This document shows, piece by piece, positions 11,582 to 28,431 of a DNA stretch of 64,000 nucleotides. The DNA is from Planctomycetales bacterium (GTDB lineage Bacteria > Planctomycetota > Planctomycetia > Isosphaerales > Isosphaeraceae). The first letter of the stretch is position 1, and each line of letters starts with the position of its first letter. Below the pieces are notes generated by a model. That model was given only the letters and a program-made list of their open reading frames with translations. It searched no databases and was not told the origin of the DNA. Position numbers and translations under genes: made by a program. The stretch covers positions 1 to 64,000 of the forward strand of contig DAIDKV010000014.1 of assembly GCA_027449865.1 (NCBI GenBank), given 5' to 3'.

Positions 11582-12886
11582 TTGACCTCGACTCCAGAAG
11601 CGGGAATCCGGGCGATGCGAGAATCTCTCAGAACGACGGTGGCCGAGGAATCCGCGACGATCGATCGCTATCGATCGATCCGCGGCTGGACCCTCCGTCT
11701 CGCCGAACCGCTCAGCCCCGAGGATTGCCAGGTTCAGCCGATGCCCGATGCGAGCCCGACGAAGTGGCACCTCGCGCACACCACCTGGTTCTTCGAGACG
11801 TTCCTGCTCACGCCTCACGTTCCTGGATATCGCCCCTACCATCCTGCCTTCAGCTTCCTCTTCAATTCGTACTACAACGCTGTGGGCCCTCGGGTAGCTC
11901 GAGCGGATCGCGGGCTGATCACGAGGCCCAGGCTCGAAGAGGTTCTCGCCTATCGCACAGCGGTGGACAGCGAGGTCGTGCATCTGCTGGAAGAGGTGGG
12001 CGAGGGTCGATCGCCCGAGATCGACGCCGTTCTCGAACTGGGTCTCAACCACGAGCAGCAGCATCAGGAATTGATCGTCACCGACATCAAGGCCACCCTC
12101 GCGCGGAACCCGCTTCGTCCCGCGTATCGCGACGATCTCGAGGTCGTCGAATCGCCCTCGCCGCCGATGGCCTGGCAAGACTTCCCCGGTGGACTCGCAC
12201 AGATCGGAGAGAACGGAAACGGATTCGCCTTCGACAACGAGGGGCCCCGTCACACGGTTCACGTCGATGCGTTCGAGCTGGCCTCGCGACCGGTAACGGT
12301 CGGCGAGTACCGGGCGTTCATGGAGGACGGCGGTTATCAGTGCGCCGAACACTGGCTCTCGGACGGATGGGCCTGTATTCACTCCCAGGGCTGGGAGGCC
12401 CCGCTCTACTGGGAGAAGATCCGAGGCGAGTGGCGGGCGTTCACGATGGGCGGGATGCGCCCGCTTGTCGACTCCGAACCGGTCGTTCACCTGAGCTATT
12501 ATGAGGCCGATGCCTTCGCTCGATGGGCTGGTGCCCGGCTTCCGACCGAGGCGGAATGGGAGATTGCCGCACGAGATCAGCCGATCGCCGGAAACTTCCT
12601 CGAAAACGAGGCGTTCCATCCGCGTCCGGCCGTGCCGGGTACGAGACTTGCTCAGTGTTTCGGCGATGTCTGGGAGTGGACCCAAAGCCCGTACATGGCC
12701 TATCCAGGGATGAGACCCGCGGCCGGGGCGCTTGGTGAATACAACGCCAAGTTCATGTGCAATCAGATCGTGTTGCGGGGCGGGTCGTGCGCGACCCCCG
12801 CGTCGCACATCCGTCCGTCGTACCGGAATTTTTTCCCGCCCGAGGCCCGCTGGCAATTCTCGGGCATCCGCCTCGCGAGGAGTTGA
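11582..12886 (+). CDS. egtB: Ergothioneine biosynthesis protein EgtB (non-haem iron sulfoxide synthase)
   Basis: Up to 434 residues, from TTG 11582 or, 11 codons later, ATG 11615; neither has a clear ribosome site. The N-terminal DinB-like half carries the iron ligands in KWHLAHTTW (His63/66 region) and NHEQQHQEL (His158/162). The C-terminal half is a formylglycine-generating-enzyme-like fold (about 195-434), ending in the conserved LRGGSCAT...RPSYRNFF segment. EgtB joins a sulfur donor (cysteine or gamma-glutamylcysteine) to trimethylhistidine using oxygen. The stop overlaps the egtD start by one base (TGATG), so the two are translationally coupled. egtA and egtC are not nearby, which fits the cysteine-using type but does not prove it. 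Confidence 0.95.
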   Translation: MTSTPEAGIRAMRESLRTTVAEESATIDRYRSIRGWTLRLAEPLSPEDCQVQPMPDASPTKWHLAHTTWFFETFLLTPHVPGYRPYHPAFSFLFNSYYNAVGPRVARADRGLITRPRLEEVLAYRTAVDSEVVHLLEEVGEGRSPEIDAVLELGLNHEQQHQELIVTDIKATLARNPLRPAYRDDLEVVESPSPPMAWQDFPGGLAQIGENGNGFAFDNEGPRHTVHVDAFELASRPVTVGEYRAFMEDGGYQCAEHWLSDGWACIHSQGWEAPLYWEKIRGEWRAFTMGGMRPLVDSEPVVHLSYYEADAFARWAGARLPTEAEWEIAARDQPIAGNFLENEAFHPRPAVPGTRLAQCFGDVWEWTQSPYMAYPGMRPAAGALGEYNAKFMCNQIVLRGGSCATPASHIRPSYRNFFPPEARWQFSGIRLARS

Positions 12887-13857
12887 TGATCGGCACCCAG
12901 ACGACGATCGAGCGCCCACCGGCGCAACTCTGCGGCCACGCCGCGTTCCGCCACGACGTCCTCAACGGCCTTGGCCTGCCGAAGAAGCGAATCCCCTGCA
13001 AGTATCTCTACGACGACCGGGGATCGGCCCTCTTCGACCGGATTTGCGAGCTGGACGAGTATTATCTCACGCGTGCCGAGCTGGCGATCCTCGAACGCCA
13101 CGTCGACGAGATGGCCGAGGCCATCGGTCCCGAGTCGGAGGTCGTGGAACTCGGGAGCGGAAGCGGGCTCAAGACGCGGCTGCTGCTGGGCCATCTCGTC
13201 GAGCCTCGCGCGTATTATCCGGTGGAGATTTCGGTCGAGACCCTGCTCCGCTCGGCCGCCGAGCTTTCCGAGCAATTCCCCGACCTGACAATCCTGCCGG
13301 TCTGCGACGACTTCACCGCCGACTTCGACCTGCCGCCTGCCGAGGGTCCCGGGCGCAGGGTCTTCTATTTTCCAGGTTCGACGATCGGCAACTTCCGCCC
13401 GAATGCGGCACTCCGGCTGCTCCGATCGATCGCCCGGCTTGCCGGATCCGGCGGCGGCCTACTCATTGGTTTCGACATCGACAAGGATCCGGCGATCGTC
13501 GAGCCCGCTTACAACGATCGCCTCGGCGTCAGTGCCGCGTTCAATCTGAACCTGCTTGCCCGAATTAATCGCGAGCTGGATGGCGACTTCGATCTCGACG
13601 CGTTCGAGCATCGCGCGGAATATCGTCGCGACGAGAAACGGGTCGAACTATCGCTCGTCAGCCGGCGCGACCAGCGCGTCTGTGTCGCCGGCCGCGTCTT
13701 CGACTTCGATGACGGCGAGCCGATCCACACCGAGGATTCGTATAAGTACACGCTGGAGCATTTCGGCCGCCTGATCGCACGCGCGGGCTTCGCGGTCGAG
13801 CGGCAGTGGTTCGACCCCGACCGGCTCTTCTGCGTGCAGTTCCTAGGCGTGGCCTGA
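12886..13857 (+). CDS. egtD: L-histidine N-alpha-methyltransferase EgtD
   Basis: 323 residues from ATG 12886, with GAGGAG just upstream inside the egtB end. EgtD trimethylates histidine with S-adenosylmethionine to give hercynine, the substrate of EgtB. Visible family marks are the N-terminal PCKYLYDDRGSALFD, the histidine-pocket helix DEYYLTRAE, the SAM loop VELGSGSGLKT, and YFPGSTIGNF. The C-terminus with FCVQFL is family-like. Its stop TGA abuts the stop of the convergent transporter gene: together the two stop codons form the palindrome TGATCA. Confidence 0.96.
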   Translation: MIGTQTTIERPPAQLCGHAAFRHDVLNGLGLPKKRIPCKYLYDDRGSALFDRICELDEYYLTRAELAILERHVDEMAEAIGPESEVVELGSGSGLKTRLLLGHLVEPRAYYPVEISVETLLRSAAELSEQFPDLTILPVCDDFTADFDLPPAEGPGRRVFYFPGSTIGNFRPNAALRLLRSIARLAGSGGGLLIGFDIDKDPAIVEPAYNDRLGVSAAFNLNLLARINRELDGDFDLDAFEHRAEYRRDEKRVELSLVSRRDQRVCVAGRVFDFDDGEPIHTEDSYKYTLEHFGRLIARAGFAVERQWFDPDRLFCVQFLGVA

Positions 13858-16197: not shown

Positions 16198-17160
16198 ATG
16201 ATCCCGATCATCTACCACCCTCGTTATAACATTACGGTCCTCGGGATGGAGCGGCTGCACCCGTTCGACGGACGCAAATACAGGCGAATCCATGAGGCTC
16301 TGATCGCTCGCGGTCTGCGAAAGCCTTCCGACTTCATCCGGCCGAGGCCGGTCGGTCGGGCGGAGCTGGAGCGTGTCCACACGCCTGGCTATTTGAAATC
16401 GCTGCGCCGATCGCGGGTGCTCGCCGAGATCCTGAACGTCCCGCTGATCGCGCGGTTGCCGGCCTGGTTCACCGACTGGCGGGTCCTTGCGCCGATGCGA
16501 TACGCGACGGGCGGGACCGTCCTCGCCTGCCGGCTGGCGCTCGATTCGGGGGTGGCGATCAACCTGGCTGGCGGTTATCACCACGCCGCATCCGACCACG
16601 GCGAGGGCTTTTGCCCCTACGCGGATATCCCACTCGCCGCGGCCACGCTCCACGCCGAGGGACGGGTGGGGCGTGTCCTCGTCGTCGACCTTGATGCCCA
16701 CCAGGGGAACGGGATTGCGGCCACGATCCGCCCGTGGCCCTGGGCCTCGATCCTCGACGTCTACGAGGACGACCTCTATCCGAACCCGAAGGAGCCTGAG
16801 GATTACCCGATCCCGATCGCCTGGGACATCACCGGCCCGGAGTACCTGGAAACGATCGACGTCTCGCTCCCGAATGTGCTCGAAGCGGTTCGGCCCGACC
16901 TGGTCATCTACAACGCCGGCTCGGACCCGTACATCGAGGACCCGCTCACCCGCCTCGGCCTCTCTCGCAACGACCTGGCCGACCGCGACCTGATGGTGGC
17001 CACCCACGTCCGCGAGCGCGGGATTCCCCTGGCGATGGTCCTTTCGGGCGGCTACGCCCGGGATTCCTGGCGAATCCACGCCGACGGGATCGAGGCGATC
17101 CTGGCGAGGTTCGACCGGGCCGCGCCGCTCCCGGCCGTCGATGAGTCGACGGCGCCTTGA
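16198..17160 (+). CDS. Histone deacetylase-like protein, class IV (HDAC11-like)
   Basis: 320 residues from ATG 16198. The N-terminus PIIYHPRYNITVLGMERLHP is closely similar to HDAC11. The active site is complete: GGYHHAASDHGEGFC (about 125-140), the zinc ligands in VDLDAHQGNG (about 162-171), the Asp of NAGSDP, and the C-terminal LSGGY. HDAC11 removes long fatty-acyl groups from lysine, so the substrate here could be an acyl-lysine or another N-acyl amine. Its head-to-head placement with the transporter operon may be chance. Confidence 0.92.
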   Translation: MIPIIYHPRYNITVLGMERLHPFDGRKYRRIHEALIARGLRKPSDFIRPRPVGRAELERVHTPGYLKSLRRSRVLAEILNVPLIARLPAWFTDWRVLAPMRYATGGTVLACRLALDSGVAINLAGGYHHAASDHGEGFCPYADIPLAAATLHAEGRVGRVLVVDLDAHQGNGIAATIRPWPWASILDVYEDDLYPNPKEPEDYPIPIAWDITGPEYLETIDVSLPNVLEAVRPDLVIYNAGSDPYIEDPLTRLGLSRNDLADRDLMVATHVRERGIPLAMVLSGGYARDSWRIHADGIEAILARFDRAAPLPAVDESTAP

Positions 17161-17236
17161 ATCCACCTCTGCTTACGGCGAGAAACTCGAATTCGTCGCG
17201 TTTTTTACCGCGAGACACCACCAGAGGATAATGCTA

Positions 17237-17827
17237 ATGGATTATTACTTGTTCCGTCCGGACAGACAGGACAGAACGGCCCGAGGTCGAATTCGGGCCA
17301 ACCTGGCCCGTAGCTATTCTCTGCCGGGTGTCGAATGTCCTGTCTGCGGCGAGACATGGTCTACGACCGGTGTTCAGTACCCGGCTATTGACCTCTTGTC
17401 GCTTGAGAACCATACGGCGTATTCGAAATCACGCGCCGTGGATTTGCGAGAGTTCGAGAAGCTCCGGCAAATTGTCCGGCCTCTCGTCACTGATGGCTGG
17501 GATCTTCCGCCTGGTACTGGGTTCGGAGCTCTATCGGGGAGCATTGGGGGCGAATATGGGCCCTGTTGTTGGGTCAATCTCTGGACTCCGCTCTTCAGCG
17601 AACAGAGGGTGTCCGTGCTGAATTCCAGGGAGATCGGGATTGTGCCCGCCAGGGTGCATTTCGCACATAGGCCTCCACACGGAGACCTTTACGAGCCTCA
17701 AATCCTCATGGGCGCTTACCTGACCTCTGGCATTCGGGAGATGGAACCCTGCGCGGGCAGTGGTCGTCGGGGATTCTCACGGCCGAAGGACCGGCTTTTG
17801 ATCCTGGATGAAGCGTCAGGGCCATGA
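17237..17827 (+). pseudogene. Double-CXXCG (SitI6-like) protein, truncated
   Basis: 196 residues from ATG 17237, which has AGAGGA 8 bp upstream. The first zinc motif CPVCG and the family stretches FEKLRQIVRPL, LPPGTGFG and the late RPKDRLLILDEAS are present. In the myxobacterial SitI6 immunity family a second CxxCG precedes that stretch, and about 40 more residues follow it. Here the second motif is CAGSG, with the second cysteine lost, and the frame stops two codons after DEAS. I infer a decayed, 3'-truncated copy cut at about 17815-17820. No SitA-like toxin gene is nearby. Confidence 0.6.
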
Positions 17828-17993
17828 CCCGTTTGTGTAGCTGCGCGACGTGCTCGGGCGATTGCCCGGCCTTCCGAAGGATCGCCTGGCGGGGCTCCTC
17901 CCGGACCGTTGGTCGGCACCGCCGGCAGGCGAAGCGGCGGCGGTCCCCGTCGAGTCGGCCCCGCTCCTCGGCTGAATGGTCGTCGGTCGTCAT
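17706..17993 (-). CDS. Possible cysteine-containing small protein fragment at a rearrangement junction
   Basis: A minus-strand frame from ATG 17993. The first 60 residues look protein-like: an acidic start, then a CRRC motif and a helix-like ILRKAGQSPEHVAQLHKRV. After about residue 58 it runs antisense through the truncated double-CXXCG gene and loses coding character. This suggests the 3' end of this gene was replaced at the same junction. I do not recognise the family. The rest of the 17828-18218 gap holds no other convincing gene. Confidence 0.3.
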   Translation of the reverse strand: MTTDDHSAEERGRLDGDRRRFACRRCRPTVREEPRQAILRKAGQSPEHVAQLHKRVMALTLHPGSKAGPSAVRIPDDHCPRRVPSPECQRSGKRP

Positions 17994-18218
17994 GTCGGCG
18001 GTGTGGCCCTGGTGATGTGCGACGACGAGCGAGTCCTGGGGCCAGCGTCACTTCCGGGCAGACGGGCGACGCATAGGTCCGAGCACCTGATGACTGGCGG
18101 AAGTCGGCCCGCCATCCCCAAGGCGGCGGGCGGAGCCGGGCCGCCGAGGGGACCGGGGTTCAGCGGACACACACGTCAGCCCCTCGACTCGAGTCAGCTC
18201 ATGTCGGATGCTGGTGGT

Positions 18219-20774
18219 ATGGAAACACCCCGCAACCGGCCCTGGTGGCGTGACCTGCGTCTCAGTGTGAGGGGACTGATGCTCGTGGTCCTGGCGGTCG
18301 CGAGCTGCCTGGGCTGGTGGCTGCATCGTGCACGCGTCCAGCGGCAGGCGGTGGCGGCCATCCGGGCGGCGGGGGGCTGGACCACCTACGAGTGGGATGT
18401 TCCCGGCGATCCCCAAACGCCCGGGTGGCGCCGATGGGTGGCGGAGCATGTCGACGTCGATCTCACCAGCTACGTCAGTCAGGTGTCGCTCCGTCCGAGC
18501 TGCGGCGACTCGGAACTGGCCCTGGTCGCCCTGTTCGACCGTCTGGAGTCTCTGGATGTTGGCGGAGCGAACGTGACCGCCGCCGGCATGGCGTCACTGA
18601 GGAAGCTGACCCGGCTCCGGAGCCTGAACCTGGAGTGTAGCCCAATCACGGATGCCGCGCTGGTTCACCTCGAAACGCTGACCGACCTCGAGAGACTGTC
18701 GCTGAATGGCACGCCGGTGACTGATGCGGGGCTGGTCCACCTGAAGGGTATGGCCAGGCTCCGAATGCTGGAACTCGCGAGTACGCAGGTTGGCGACGCG
18801 GGCATGGCCTCTCTCGGGGGGCTCCCGAGGCTGGGGTCGCTGTGGCTGCATCGCACGAAGGTCGGCGACGCCGGCCTGGCGCACCTGAGTCGCCTACCTC
18901 GGCTCGTGCAGCTCGAGCTCGACAGTACGTGGGTCACCGATGCCGGACTCGCTCACGTGGGAAGGATGACGAACCTGAGGGTGCTGAATCTCTCCCACAC
19001 CCAGGTCAAGGGTCCGGGACTCGCCCACCTGCGTTCCCTGGTCCGGCTTACTAGCCTGGACCTGACACGGGCGCCCGTGACCGACGACGGACTCGCGCAC
19101 CTGCCGCGCTTGACCGGGCTGAGCAGTCTGTATGTCGGCAAGACCCGGATCACCGACGCGGGTCTGGCCCACCTGGCGGGTTTGATCGGCCTGAAAGAAC
19201 TGTATATCGACGGTACTAACGTCAGCGATGCCGGTCTGCCGCACCTCGAGGGACTCTCACGGCTCAGCCAGGTGGTGGCCCACCATACCAGGGTCACCGA
19301 TGCGGGCAAGTCGCGGATCCTCAAGGCGCTGCCGAACCTCAACATCTACATCCCCTCTCCTGACGAGGCGGACGCCGCGGCGAAGGCGGAGAAGCCGCCG
19401 GAGGCCGGGCGTGACGGCGGCGTCGGGAGCGGGCGCCGGCTCTTCACGCCGGACGGCAAGCTGGTTTATGTGAACGTCTACTCGACTGCCCCCGGCGCCG
19501 ACCGGAACGACGTCGTCAAGTTCGCGAACGACGTCGTCATGCCCCGCCTCGGGCGTATCAAGGGCTTCGATTTGCCCAGGGAGCTCGCCAACCGCCACCC
19601 CGCCCTGCGGGTCCGACTGAACCCCGACCAGATGAGGGCCCACAACCTGTCGTCCGGGGACATCATCGAGGAACTCGACGTCCCGTCGTCGGGAGAGGTC
19701 CACCCGGGCGACGAGCTCGACGAGGCCATGGGGAAGGTGTATTCGGGGCAGGTGTTTCCGCTCAAGGCGTACGAGCTGATTGTGATCTGGCCATCCAGGC
19801 AGACCAACCAGATGGAAAGCTATGCATTCATGCCTTTGGGGTCGAGTCCCGACGGCAAGCTCGTGCAACTCAAGGACGTCGGCCGGGTGGAGCTGGCGCC
19901 TCCGTTCCTGGATATTTCCTCGGAGGTCGACGGGCATCCCGCAACGTCGATCGTCCTGAAGTCCCTCCCGGGCTGGAGCGCCGCCATCGCCATCGAAGCG
20001 ATTGAGAAGGACCTCGAGGAGCTGAAGGCGGCGGCGTTCCCTCCCGGCATGAGCGTCGAGGTCATTCCGCTCGATAGCCAGGACCTGATCTATGCGGTGA
20101 TCGAGTCTCCTCCGCGCTCGAAGCTTGAGTCCACGAGCGCCCGGTGCCGCGAGCTGGGTTCGATCGCCAGGGGCATCGATGGGATCACCTCGGTCTCCTC
20201 GCTGGCGGGTTACCAGATCCGGACGGAGGGCCACGGCCTGGCCGTGGGAACGTGCCTCATCCGCTTGAAGGACCGGTCGGGCCGCAAACTAACTTCGCGC
20301 CAGATCATCGAGACGCTCGAGGGAAAAAGCCGAACGTTGAAGGCCCATCTCGAGTTCTTCGAGCCGCCCGCGGTTTCGGTCTTCGTCGCGGCCGGGGGTT
20401 TCTCCGTACGCGTCCTGGACAGGACGCACTCGCACGATGACGGGCGGCCCGGAAGTGGGGCCGAGACGTTCATGGACGACCTGTTGAAACGCAAGAGCCT
20501 GGAAGGCTTGCTCAACTACCTGGCCGGCCACTACCCGCGACATGAGCTAACCATCAACAACGACGTCGCCAGGCAGAGAGGGTTGTCGATCGCGGATGCG
20601 CTGGAGAGCCTGGTTGTCATGATGGGCGACGATGTCCAGGCCGATGGGACATTCGAGAGGGTTGTTGAGGACTACTGGAATCGGTTCGCCAGGAACGGCC
20701 GCGGGGAGATGGTGCCATACCGCTCGTTCCTGCTGCTCAGGATGAAGCAACGATTGAAGGAGAGCGACCGCTAG
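18219..20774 (+). CDS. Membrane-anchored LRR protein fused to a transmembrane-less RND porter domain
   Basis: 851 residues from ATG 18219 (ATG 18201 is an alternative). Residues about 10-33 form one membrane helix, followed by a planctomycete-type linker. Eleven leucine-rich repeats of about 24 residues span about 118-377, each with a [VI]TDAGL-like core. Residues about 414-844 then follow an AcrB/HAE1-type RND pump: LRVRLNPDQMRAHNLSSGDI (PN2), VQLKDVGRVEL and KSLPGW. At ESPPRSKLEST the sequence jumps directly to the PC1 part, then continues through GGFSVRVLDRT and ends at GEMVPYRSF. No RND transmembrane helices remain, neither between the two halves nor at the end, and no proton-relay Asp pair. 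It cannot be a pump by itself; a binding or adaptor role is inference. Confidence 0.82.
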   Translation: METPRNRPWWRDLRLSVRGLMLVVLAVASCLGWWLHRARVQRQAVAAIRAAGGWTTYEWDVPGDPQTPGWRRWVAEHVDVDLTSYVSQVSLRPSCGDSELALVALFDRLESLDVGGANVTAAGMASLRKLTRLRSLNLECSPITDAALVHLETLTDLERLSLNGTPVTDAGLVHLKGMARLRMLELASTQVGDAGMASLGGLPRLGSLWLHRTKVGDAGLAHLSRLPRLVQLELDSTWVTDAGLAHVGRMTNLRVLNLSHTQVKGPGLAHLRSLVRLTSLDLTRAPVTDDGLAHLPRLTGLSSLYVGKTRITDAGLAHLAGLIGLKELYIDGTNVSDAGLPHLEGLSRLSQVVAHHTRVTDAGKSRILKALPNLNIYIPSPDEADAAAKAEKPPEAGRDGGVGSGRRLFTPDGKLVYVNVYSTAPGADRNDVVKFANDVVMPRLGRIKGFDLPRELANRHPALRVRLNPDQMRAHNLSSGDIIEELDVPSSGEVHPGDELDEAMGKVYSGQVFPLKAYELIVIWPSRQTNQMESYAFMPLGSSPDGKLVQLKDVGRVELAPPFLDISSEVDGHPATSIVLKSLPGWSAAIAIEAIEKDLEELKAAAFPPGMSVEVIPLDSQDLIYAVIESPPRSKLESTSARCRELGSIARGIDGITSVSSLAGYQIRTEGHGLAVGTCLIRLKDRSGRKLTSRQIIETLEGKSRTLKAHLEFFEPPAVSVFVAAGGFSVRVLDRTHSHDDGRPGSGAETFMDDLLKRKSLEGLLNYLAGHYPRHELTINNDVARQRGLSIADALESLVVMMGDDVQADGTFERVVEDYWNRFARNGRGEMVPYRSFLLLRMKQRLKESDR

Positions 20775-21287
20775 AACCCATTTCCCTCCACCGCCATTCA
20801 AGGTATGCCGGGTCGCCCCCCGAGGCCAGCCCGAACCTCCGAATGGGGTTGGCCGGACGCACACCGAATTCTCAGCCAGTCTCCCTGGCGAAGGCCTTCT
20901 TTTCCAGCAGCTCCTCGATGCATCGCGCCTGAACTTTTCTCCACCCCTGCGCCAAATGCTCGGTCTCGGTCCAATCGATCGAGGGCGACTTACGAAACGG
21001 CATTAGATGTCCTTCCCCGGACTTCGGGCGCAGAGCAACATGGAAAACCTCGATGTAATTCCTCGAGCAGCAACCCCACCGCGCGAACCGCGTCTGACTC
21101 CCCCTGCGTCTCGTCGACCTTCACCACCCTTTACGCCCCTCTGCCCCTGTCGTAGTCTGGGGCATCGCCCGATCGGGCCGCGCCGCGCGGGTTGGGCGAG
21201 GAACGGCGGTTCCGACCTCTCCCGTCCGGAGCCGGCCCGGTGAGCGAGGGCGCCCCGCGCCGACGTGCCAGGACAGGGGGAAACCGG
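20775..21287. other. 513-bp gap with only weak small frames
   Basis: No gene of clear family was found between the LRR-RND gene and the amino acid permease. Two short overlapping minus-strand frames stand out slightly: GTG 21124 to 20990 (44 residues, with AVGLLLEELHRG) and ATG 21003 to 20872. They may be remnants of one frameshifted gene. Confidence 0.4.
20872..21003 (-). CDS. Possible 43-residue protein
   Basis: ATG at 21003 is preceded by GGAAGGA at good spacing. The product begins MPFRKSPSIDW and then has a helix-like charged stretch (VQARCIEELLEKKAF). I do not recognise it. The frame is also open upstream of the ATG for about 40 codons, so it may be the tail of a degraded larger gene. 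Confidence 0.3.
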   Translation of the reverse strand: MPFRKSPSIDWTETEHLAQGWRKVQARCIEELLEKKAFARETG

Positions 21288-25104: not shown

Positions 25105-28100
25105 ATGTCGACCTTCCCCTATCGAGCTGTCCTCCTCCTCCTCGCGATCGGGTTTCCGACCATCGCCACGGCCGATGAGCGATCGTTGAAGCCGGGTGAA
25201 GCCCGGTCGATGGCGCTCGGCGAGCTCCACTCAGGTCGGACTTACCGGCTCCTGGTCGCGATTGTCGGAGAACCCGCCGCGACCGGGGATCGCGTCCGCG
25301 TCGAGCTGGAGGGCGCCGGTGTCGATCGGTTCGCGAAGGAATTGCACGGCGGCGATCCCGATTTCTATTTGTCCTATCGACCGGCCTGCGATGGTTCGGC
25401 GGCGCTTCGGCTCTCGCGATCGAACGGTCGCAACGCCCATGAACTGGCGCTTCGCGTGGAATGGGCCGAAATCCCGATCCGGGCCGACGACCAGCCGGCA
25501 CTCGAGGCCGAGCCGAATGACTCCTGGTCGACCGCGAATCGCCTGGTCCTCGGGCGCGACGTCCACGGAACGGCCGACGATGTGGATTATCTCGAAAACC
25601 GCGATGAAGGCCAGCGCGGGCTGGACTGGTTCCGATTCGAGGTCGATCAGGACAGGCCGATGCTCGTCTACTTCCAGCTCGACCTGCTGGATCGCGACGT
25701 TTCGGCGAATCTCCGGGTTTTCCGGCTCAATCCCAGGACCGGCCGGCCCGAGTCCGACACCCGCGGCAAGGATCCGATGGAGATCGTTCACGATCGCGAG
25801 CGGGTTCGGTACTCGAAACATCTGAGTCGGGTCCTCGATCGCGGGACCTATTTCGTCGAGGTCAACGCCAACCATCCGGATTATCTCCTCCGGACTCGAT
25901 CGTTTCCGGTCCCGCCGTACGACGACCCCGCGCAGGCGGTCGAGGCGGGAATGCACTACATCCTCAACGCCGGCGATGCCTGGTTCGCACAGATTCCGCG
26001 TGAGGGGAACCGATTCGTCCGATCGAAGAACCTCCACGAGACCGCGACCCGATGCACGGCCTGCCACGCGTCGAGCTTCTCGACCGAGGCCAACCTCGTC
26101 GCCCACAAAAACGGCTACCCGATCCGGTCGAAGGCGGCGATGCAGTACCTGATGGACCGCCTCGCGAACTCGCCGACCCCGCTCTATGGCGAAACCGGTT
26201 TGTACTGGCAACGGTTCATCGCGATCCCGCTTCAATCGCAGGGGCTGCAAGGAGGGCTGCTCCTCGATTTTGAGGACCGCGTCTCGGGCCAGCCAGCCCA
26301 CGCCACCGAGCGGTTCGGACCCTTCCTGAAAGCAGCCTGGGAAGACCGGACGACCCTTCCCGACGACGAGCACAACGGCGTGATCCCCCTCGATAGCAAA
26401 TTCGAGTTCGCCTGGCGAGATCGCGAGGTCCTTCGAGCACTCGCACGTCGGACCGGTCGCGACGACTACGCCCGCGCCGCCGACCGGATCGCCGGCATCC
26501 TCAGCCAGCGAGCCGCCGATCGACGCGCGGAATCGCTCCAGGATCGAATCCACCGTCTCCATGCCTGGTGGCTGATCGATCCCCAGAAATTCGCCGGTAA
26601 AATCCGACGCGAGACCGGCGCCCTGATCGCCCTTCAAAACAACGACGGGGGCTGGAACGAGGTCGACACCGGACCCGGCCCGAGCGCTCTCTACACAACG
26701 GGTCAGCTCGCCTGGACCCTCCTGCGAATCGGACTCCCTCGCGATCACCCGGCCGTGGCGAAGGCCCTTCGATACATCCTGACGCAGCAGCAGGATTTCG
26801 GCGGATGGATCCAGACCACAACCCACGAGAACTTCCGAACGCCGATGCGAGAGACCCGATACGCCGTGATGGCCCTCTCAGAAGCCTTCCCTCGCCCTGG
26901 CGCTCCACTCCAGGGCTGGGATAACCACAACCTGGACCCAGCGAGACTCCACGGGACTTTTTCGATCCTCGAAATCCTCGAAAATCTCGAAAATCTCTGG
27001 GAAATTCCCAAATCCGACCCCGCCCAATACACCCAGACCGTCCAATCATTACTCGATCATACCGAGCCTCTCGTCCGCGCCTCGGCCGCCGCCTGCCTCG
27101 GACGAATTGGCGATTCCAGGCATATAGCTCCGCTGATTCATTGCCTCGGAGATCCCAGCAAGATCGTCTGGCGAGCCTCGGCGTGGGCCCTTCGACATCT
27201 CGGCAACCGCGGGATCGGCCACGCCGAAATCGCAAGAGCCCTCCGATCGCCCGAGCCCGCCATTCGTCGCGGCGCCGCTCGTATCTTCGCCTATCAGTTT
27301 TATGGAATGGATCAAGAAGAACATTTACGTGATTCTTTTTTCACTCTTCTCGCCGATCCCGACCTGCTGACCCGGTTGCAGGCCGTTCAGACCCTCCGGC
27401 AGTGGTTCTATCGAAGCATGGATTTCCATGTTTGCACCACCATTGTTCGCGCGTTCATCAAGCGAATGTCGGCCGCCGACGATCCGGCCGTCCGCCAATG
27501 TCTCGTCGAGAATCTCTATATCATGATGGATGAGAACCTTGGCGGCGGTGTGAGTCTTCAGAAGAATGTGGGCGAGTTGCCTGGCGCGATGCGAGGGGGG
27601 ATTCTCATGGGTCGCGAGCGATTGGAGCGAGAGGTGCTGCTCGGTCCGATTCTCGAAGCGCTTCGCACGGGGACTGTCGATCAGCGGCGGGGGATTCTTT
27701 CGGCGTTCGACGGCTCGTTTTTTCGGGGGCGAGGCTACGCGCGTCGGCCGGCGGGGATGATCGATGTCGGCAACGATCGAGAGTTTGGGTTTTTGTCGAC
27801 GATGGCGCTCGCGGAGCGTGAATTGGCGTTTCTTCCCCTGCTCCGAGCCGATCTGCCGGCGGTATCGCGAGGTCAGGCGGTCCGGCTCGCCGGGTTCTTC
27901 CGTCTTCCTGAAGAGTCGAACGATCCTCGGATCCTCCAGGCAGTTCGTGACCGCTTGAACGATCCGGATGAGGGTGTCCGCCTCGCGGCCCGAGAGGTTC
28001 TACGCGCGCCGGATGGTCCCACGCGGAAGCCTCAACGTCCGATACCCGAGAGCAACCGGCCCCGGACTCCGATCGACCCGGCCCGGCGGCCGAGCTTCGC

Positions 28101-28431
28101 CGTTTTTCGGGATCGGGTCAATCCCTGGCTCTATCGAAACGGCGAGGACGGCTACGCCTGCTCCGACTGCCATGACAGTCACGCGATCCTCCGGATCGCG
28201 CCGGCCTCGGACGAGAATGCGGCCACCGTGAACTATCAATCGGCGCTCGCCGCGATCGAGATCGATCGACCGGAGTCGAGCCCCCTTCTGGTCAAGCCCA
28301 TGAGCCCGCTCGGCCAGGGCGATCCCGACCCGGAAAGCCCGACCGGGTTCACCCACGTCGGCGGCCCTCGGTGGCATGGCCCCGACCACCCAGCCTATCG
28401 CGCGATCCTTGAATGGATCCAAGGAAACTGA
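25105..28431 (+). CDS. Large secreted protein with two CxxCH motifs, cyclase-like repeats and HEAT repeats
   Basis: 1108 residues from ATG 25105, with a signal peptide (about 1-24, cleavage after a TATA-D-like site). A pre-peptidase-type beta domain follows (about 140-280). The first CxxCH (CTACH, residue 317) lies in a cytochrome-like segment. The middle part (about 500-640) has LIALQNNDGGWNEV and QQDFGGWIQ, the GGW-type repeats of alpha/alpha-barrel cyclases. HEAT-like repeats run over about 650-980 (LVRASAAACLGRIGD; GVRLAAREVL). A second CxxCH (CSDCH, residue 1019) sits near the C-terminus. Covalent haem at both sites is probable if exported. Function is unknown; electron transfer or oxidative handling of a polymer is conceivable. 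Confidence 0.8.
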   Translation: MSTFPYRAVLLLLAIGFPTIATADERSLKPGEARSMALGELHSGRTYRLLVAIVGEPAATGDRVRVELEGAGVDRFAKELHGGDPDFYLSYRPACDGSAALRLSRSNGRNAHELALRVEWAEIPIRADDQPALEAEPNDSWSTANRLVLGRDVHGTADDVDYLENRDEGQRGLDWFRFEVDQDRPMLVYFQLDLLDRDVSANLRVFRLNPRTGRPESDTRGKDPMEIVHDRERVRYSKHLSRVLDRGTYFVEVNANHPDYLLRTRSFPVPPYDDPAQAVEAGMHYILNAGDAWFAQIPREGNRFVRSKNLHETATRCTACHASSFSTEANLVAHKNGYPIRSKAAMQYLMDRLANSPTPLYGETGLYWQRFIAIPLQSQGLQGGLLLDFEDRVSGQPAHATERFGPFLKAAWEDRTTLPDDEHNGVIPLDSKFEFAWRDREVLRALARRTGRDDYARAADRIAGILSQRAADRRAESLQDRIHRLHAWWLIDPQKFAGKIRRETGALIALQNNDGGWNEVDTGPGPSALYTTGQLAWTLLRIGLPRDHPAVAKALRYILTQQQDFGGWIQTTTHENFRTPMRETRYAVMALSEAFPRPGAPLQGWDNHNLDPARLHGTFSILEILENLENLWEIPKSDPAQYTQTVQSLLDHTEPLVRASAAACLGRIGDSRHIAPLIHCLGDPSKIVWRASAWALRHLGNRGIGHAEIARALRSPEPAIRRGAARIFAYQFYGMDQEEHLRDSFFTLLADPDLLTRLQAVQTLRQWFYRSMDFHVCTTIVRAFIKRMSAADDPAVRQCLVENLYIMMDENLGGGVSLQKNVGELPGAMRGGILMGRERLEREVLLGPILEALRTGTVDQRRGILSAFDGSFFRGRGYARRPAGMIDVGNDREFGFLSTMALAERELAFLPLLRADLPAVSRGQAVRLAGFFRLPEESNDPRILQAVRDRLNDPDEGVRLAAREVLRAPDGPTRKPQRPIPESNRPRTPIDPARRPSFAVFRDRVNPWLYRNGEDGYACSDCHDSHAILRIAPASDENAATVNYQSALAAIEIDRPESSPLLVKPMSPLGQGDPDPESPTGFTHVGGPRWHGPDHPAYRAILEWIQGN

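Follow-up and report, generated by a model that had tools for sequence, protein, structure and literature searches.

Can the porter of an RND pump persist in nature as a protein of its own, detached from the membrane motor, and what might such a protein do? The question is raised by one gene in the window, a 64,000-nucleotide stretch of DNA from a planctomycete of the Isosphaeraceae. An RND pump is regarded as a single machine, its porter functional only through coupling with the membrane motor. A natural porter that is conserved without the motor, cut down to the drug-binding unit of AcrB, would demonstrate that such a unit is able to exist as an independent protein. It would also offer a natural counterpart of AcrBper (PDB 5EN5, 7B8R), the engineered soluble fusion of both AcrB periplasmic loops, for testing binding separately from transport.

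Architecture of the fusion protein

The gene occupies positions 18219–20774 of the forward strand, on which all window features given below also lie, as a single intact open reading frame of 851 amino acids and a stop codon (P0001). Upstream, the frame continues without a stop as far as 17976, but METPR... at 18219 matches the beginning of LRR relatives that stand alone. From there the protein runs through an N-terminal helix, eleven LRRs and a disordered linker into a 440-residue HAE1-type RND porter that holds no RND membrane helix. The frame, its coordinates, the domain order, the eleven repeats and the single helix had all been described in a first-pass annotation, and our ORF, Pfam, PDB and hydropathy analyses agree with it.

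The only hydrophobic helix lies near residues 13–35 (18255–18323), as supported by hydropathy, a stand-alone relative (L014) and the full-length model, which has a long helix at residues 9–50; basic residues flank it on both sides. Scanning with 19-residue windows at a cut-off of 1.6 finds no further helix beyond residue 60, where the best window reaches 1.28, whereas three full-length relatives each have 17–20 windows above the cut-off. The twelve membrane helices of HAE-1 pumps are thus replaced by a single N-terminal one. The LRR region, comprising eleven 24-residue repeats and an end cap (residues about 106–380, 18534–19358), is recognized by several Pfam LRR models (LRR_4/LRR_8), with Pfam and NCBIfam matches together spanning residues about 100–380. 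Nine of the repeats fit the 24-residue pattern between residues 130 and 346, and two more, at 106 and 250, were placed by eye in the same register. In the full-length model the solenoid is well predicted (pLDDT mostly 80–96), and pLDDT falls below 50 in the linker at residues 383–412 (19365–19454), where LRR protein and porter are fused. L014, a stand-alone planctomycete LRR membrane protein that ends near this point, is 43% identical over residues 7–374. Proteins of its type share with the fusion the start region, the single helix and the 24-residue LRRs, but stop after the LRRs without a porter; because these relatives of the first 380 residues end there, the gene is two existing proteins joined through the linker.

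The remainder of the protein aligns with HAE-1 pumps (AcrB, MexB, CmeB, OqxB; PF00873) and matches Pfam ACR_tran over residues 410–628 (E=1.7e-22, 79.5 bits against a cut-off of 28); with further NCBIfam RND matches, the RND permease assignments together span residues 410–837. A PDB sequence search aligns CmeB, BpeF, OqxB, MexB and AcrB in two blocks, AcrB-type 137–340 and 560–812, which correspond to PN2-DN-PN2 followed by PC1-PC2-DC, with the membrane segment between them missing. On AcrB numbering, the protein retains 134–325, 564–757 and 773–818. PN2 with the inserted DN docking domain comprises residues 412–615 (19452–20063; AcrB 134–325, from PDB alignment and model). It is followed by a joint at 20063/20064, where pumps have TM2 onward and where about AcrB 326–563 is absent from the alignment. 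PC1 occupies residues 616–722 (20064–20384; AcrB 564–673, from alignment and model) and is the part with the best prediction and the best conservation. The first half of PC2, with a trimmed DC, covers residues 723–851 (20385–20771; AcrB 674–757 and 773–818, from the alignment) and ends where pumps go on into the remaining PC2 and TM8. The earlier claim that PN2, PC1 and PC2 follow in order without RND helices therefore stands, but PN1 is also absent, PC2 is present only in its first half and the DC hairpin is reduced.

Structure prediction gives the same picture. An AlphaFold2 model of residues 401–851, for which 67 sequences were used, reaches pLDDT values above 90 across much of PN2 and PC1 and falls to low values in DN (pTM 0.58). 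The sixteen best Foldseek matches are all AcrBper chains (E about 1e-20), and VIA gives Z of 23–25 to many RND pumps, including CmeB, OqxB and AcrB, with rmsd values of 5.5–7.3 over 261–285 residues that point to common domains in shifted relative placement. As modelled, the C-terminal part is an RND porter fold, strongly so in PN2 and PC1 and weakly in DN and DC, and a non-RND fold, named beforehand as the outcome that would overturn the assignment, was not obtained.

The likeness to HAE-1 pumps thus extends to the sequence, fold and order of PN2-DN and PC1-PC2a-DC, with planctomycete pumps 45–54% identical to the porter over the PC half. In contrast to these pumps, the fusion lacks the membrane helices, PN1, half of PC2, the DC hairpin and an adaptor/OMF operon, and carries the LRRs in addition. 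With the membrane domain go the segments that hold the proton relay (D407, D408 and K940 in AcrB), so that pumping is excluded on the anatomy predicted from the sequence, in agreement with the earlier view that this is not a proton-coupled pump.

A small family of porters without membrane helices

The complete fusion is also found on two short MAG contigs, JAKAHU010000225.1 (L076) and JAKAFH010000096.1 (L077), which are nearly identical to each other and show 96.5% DNA identity to window positions 17812–20868; labelled Chloroflexi and Actinomycetes, they are probably misbinned. The first-pass annotation had proposed searching other planctomycetes for the same domain pair and inspecting its neighbours. 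In our searches the pair recurred only on these two contigs; what that proposal had not anticipated is that the porter free of membrane helices (TM-free) also exists by itself. One Isosphaeraceae genome (G042) encodes two such stand-alone porters, 493 and 456 amino acids long, and a more distant planctomycete from another family of the same class (G122) encodes one of 474 amino acids. These three proteins (L024, L040 and L073) can be aligned to the window protein over their full length, with 44–50% identity. Searches covering roughly 930 genomes, almost all from this phylum, and one scan of the GTDB genome collection yielded no TM-free members beyond the window protein, these three and the two MAG copies, under strict thresholds that distant members could escape; the matches listed from plasmid records were just ordinary two-piece pump matches.

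The stand-alone porters share the cuts and the diagnostic residues of the fusion and differ from it in lacking LRRs and in having a short, signal-peptide-like start (K..VVLL.SC.IAS), unlike pump TM1. This start contains a lipobox-like LxSC (LTSC, LSSC or LVSC) inside the first hydrophobic stretch, with hydrophobic residues running on past the Cys. The cuts are identical across the family, with small shifts in the G122 copy, and the joint after PN2 is the same in all five sequences. PN2 and PC1 are whole throughout; in every member the DC hairpin lacks about 15 residues, and the DN hairpin is eroded. At nine positions all members share a residue that 79 pumps lack or have only rarely (at most 6%). 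Given these shared cuts and residues, the TM-free porters are a real, rare and small family in Planctomycetia, to which the LRR fusion is an addition in one lineage. An ordinary truncated pump fragment was also considered as an identity for the gene and rejected on account of the LRR module upstream of the porter and the cuts common to all members.

The history of the porter may be composite. In the PC half, the TM-free members form one clade with support of 100. In the PN-half tree, the window protein lies near pump group b and two other members near group a; an AU test of a single PN-half clade gives p=0.19 with all members and p=0.027 without the fastest member. The trees only suggest that the porter (19452–20771) could be a mosaic of two pump lineages, with a PN half resembling group b and a PC half resembling group a. 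Branches within the family are long, at 0.9–3.6 changes per column.

The architecture and the family are new, whereas the RND porter fold itself is known. Our searches of open-licence papers found neither a natural TM-free RND porter nor an LRR-RND fusion, in line with the initial impression that no natural protein of this architecture had been described.

Possible function and competing explanations

We tentatively favour a membrane-anchored, non-transporting envelope binding protein that uses its LRRs as a partner-binding arm, a reading to which we give close to an even chance. According to sequence and model, one helix would anchor the protein, with the LRR solenoid and the linker leading to the reduced HAE1 porter; by analogy with pumps, the porter would be periplasmic. 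The AcrB porter consists of two repeats, of which PN1/PC2 is rigid and PN2/PC1 shifts conformation on substrate binding in its core (PMC4359379, PMC8277102). On that analogy, small molecules might be bound, without being moved, in the PN2/PC1 cleft, which in AcrB is the drug-binding pocket, while the LRRs might sense a partner protein or draw it in, so that a former pump part would now serve as a receptor or scavenger. That the PN2/PC1 unit was domesticated as an envelope receptor, to which one lineage attached an LRR arm, yielding a membrane-anchored chemical receptor or scavenger, is plausible but falls somewhat short of even chances.

Support for a binding protein comes from the RND match and fold, the family with identical boundaries, selection on the RND part, the retention of PN2/PC1 and the loss of the hairpins. 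Against it stand the basic residues on both sides of the helix, the pocket residues and the comparison with AcrBper. Pocket-wall positions are kept at 68% versus 57% elsewhere (p=0.25), that is, without enrichment, although at positions 139, 178, 573, 612 and 615 the four members all retain the residue found in pumps; binding of pump ligands, one of the functions first proposed, is thus not established. AcrBper resembles the natural protein in having its porter halves joined without membrane helices, and shows that a motor-less porter fusion folds and binds drugs, but it does so as a trimer, and none of the four porter subdomains is missing from it (PMC8617272). It is man-made and retains both hairpins, whereas the natural protein appears more reduced and is predicted to be membrane-anchored.

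An unlikely alternative is that the porter piece acts as a partner, modulator or decoy, binding an RND pump, adaptor or outer-membrane channel of the same cell and tuning or blocking its assembly. The homology to pump surfaces would suit such a role, and potential targets exist: the window genome has a complete adaptor-RND-OMF operon on another contig (C22), and G042 and G122 likewise hold full-length pumps. However, erosion is strongest in the inter-protomer hairpins, with 29% of pump-conserved cells kept compared with 60% elsewhere (p=3e-11, for interrelated sequences and regions picked after viewing the alignment), which suggests that the porter may act outside an AcrB-type trimer. Moreover, the neighbours of the members examined are unrelated and include no pump, adaptor or OMF gene adjoining any member, and the nearest full pump in the window genome shares only about 45% identity and falls, by its PC half, in the other pump group. 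The earlier suggestion of a partner or decoy subunit is weakened accordingly.

Similarly improbable is a structural or adhesion protein in which the alpha/beta modules of the porter serve only as a stable scaffold, with the LRRs as the working part and no small-molecule ligand. The long branches and the background level of pocket retention would fit the loss of an old ligand, but members without LRRs exist, and the LRR part is less constrained than the porter. Between the window and L076, dN/dS is 0.34 in the RND part (p=0.004) and 0.24 in its PC half, compared with 0.78 in the LRR part and 1.4 in the N-terminus, where there are few changes. Because constraint on the LRR and N-terminal parts is weak, the role of the LRRs as a partner-binding arm is itself weakly supported.

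The same comparison makes it highly doubtful that the gene is a decaying, functionless pump remnant whose frame is open by chance. Decay would be compatible with strong divergence, a scattered distribution, the presence of IS elements at the locus and a whole-gene dN/dS of 0.62. However, the frames are open in five sequences despite deep divergence, diagnostic residues are held in common and all indels between the window and L076 are in frame; the substitution ratios indicate that the RND part is under purifying selection. An assembly or sequencing artefact that removed the helices in this one genome, the error envisaged at the outset, can be practically dismissed, as we found no point in its favour and the same gene occurs in two other assemblies, while relatives in two more genomes are cut at identical places.

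Genomic surroundings

In the window, the gene is surrounded by a Gmx_para_CXXCG gene, an HDAC-like gene, an amino-acid permease and an MFS transporter. Directly upstream lies a relic of an IS66 transposase C-terminus (17802–17972; 89% over 57 amino acids, with one in-frame TAG stop); a full IS66 transposase at the same place in L076 and L077 shows that the locus is plastic. The Gmx_para_CXXCG gene (17141–17827; PF09535, E 9.9e-34), which directly precedes the relic, is not there in L076 and L077. This family was first named after Myxococcus paralogues. Past 20868, L077 diverges from the window, and to the right of the conserved block it carries a stretch (L077:5675–5795) that looks transposase-like by eye, HMAVDTLGHLLALHVTPADEQE..., and is missing from the window.

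Two further loci in the window merit mention. At 11582–13857, a DinB_2/FGE-sulfatase gene adjoins a histidine-specific methyltransferase gene, which looks like an EgtB-EgtD ergothioneine pair. At 25108–28428, a large protein combines HEAT repeats with a weak squalene-hopene-cyclase-like stretch.
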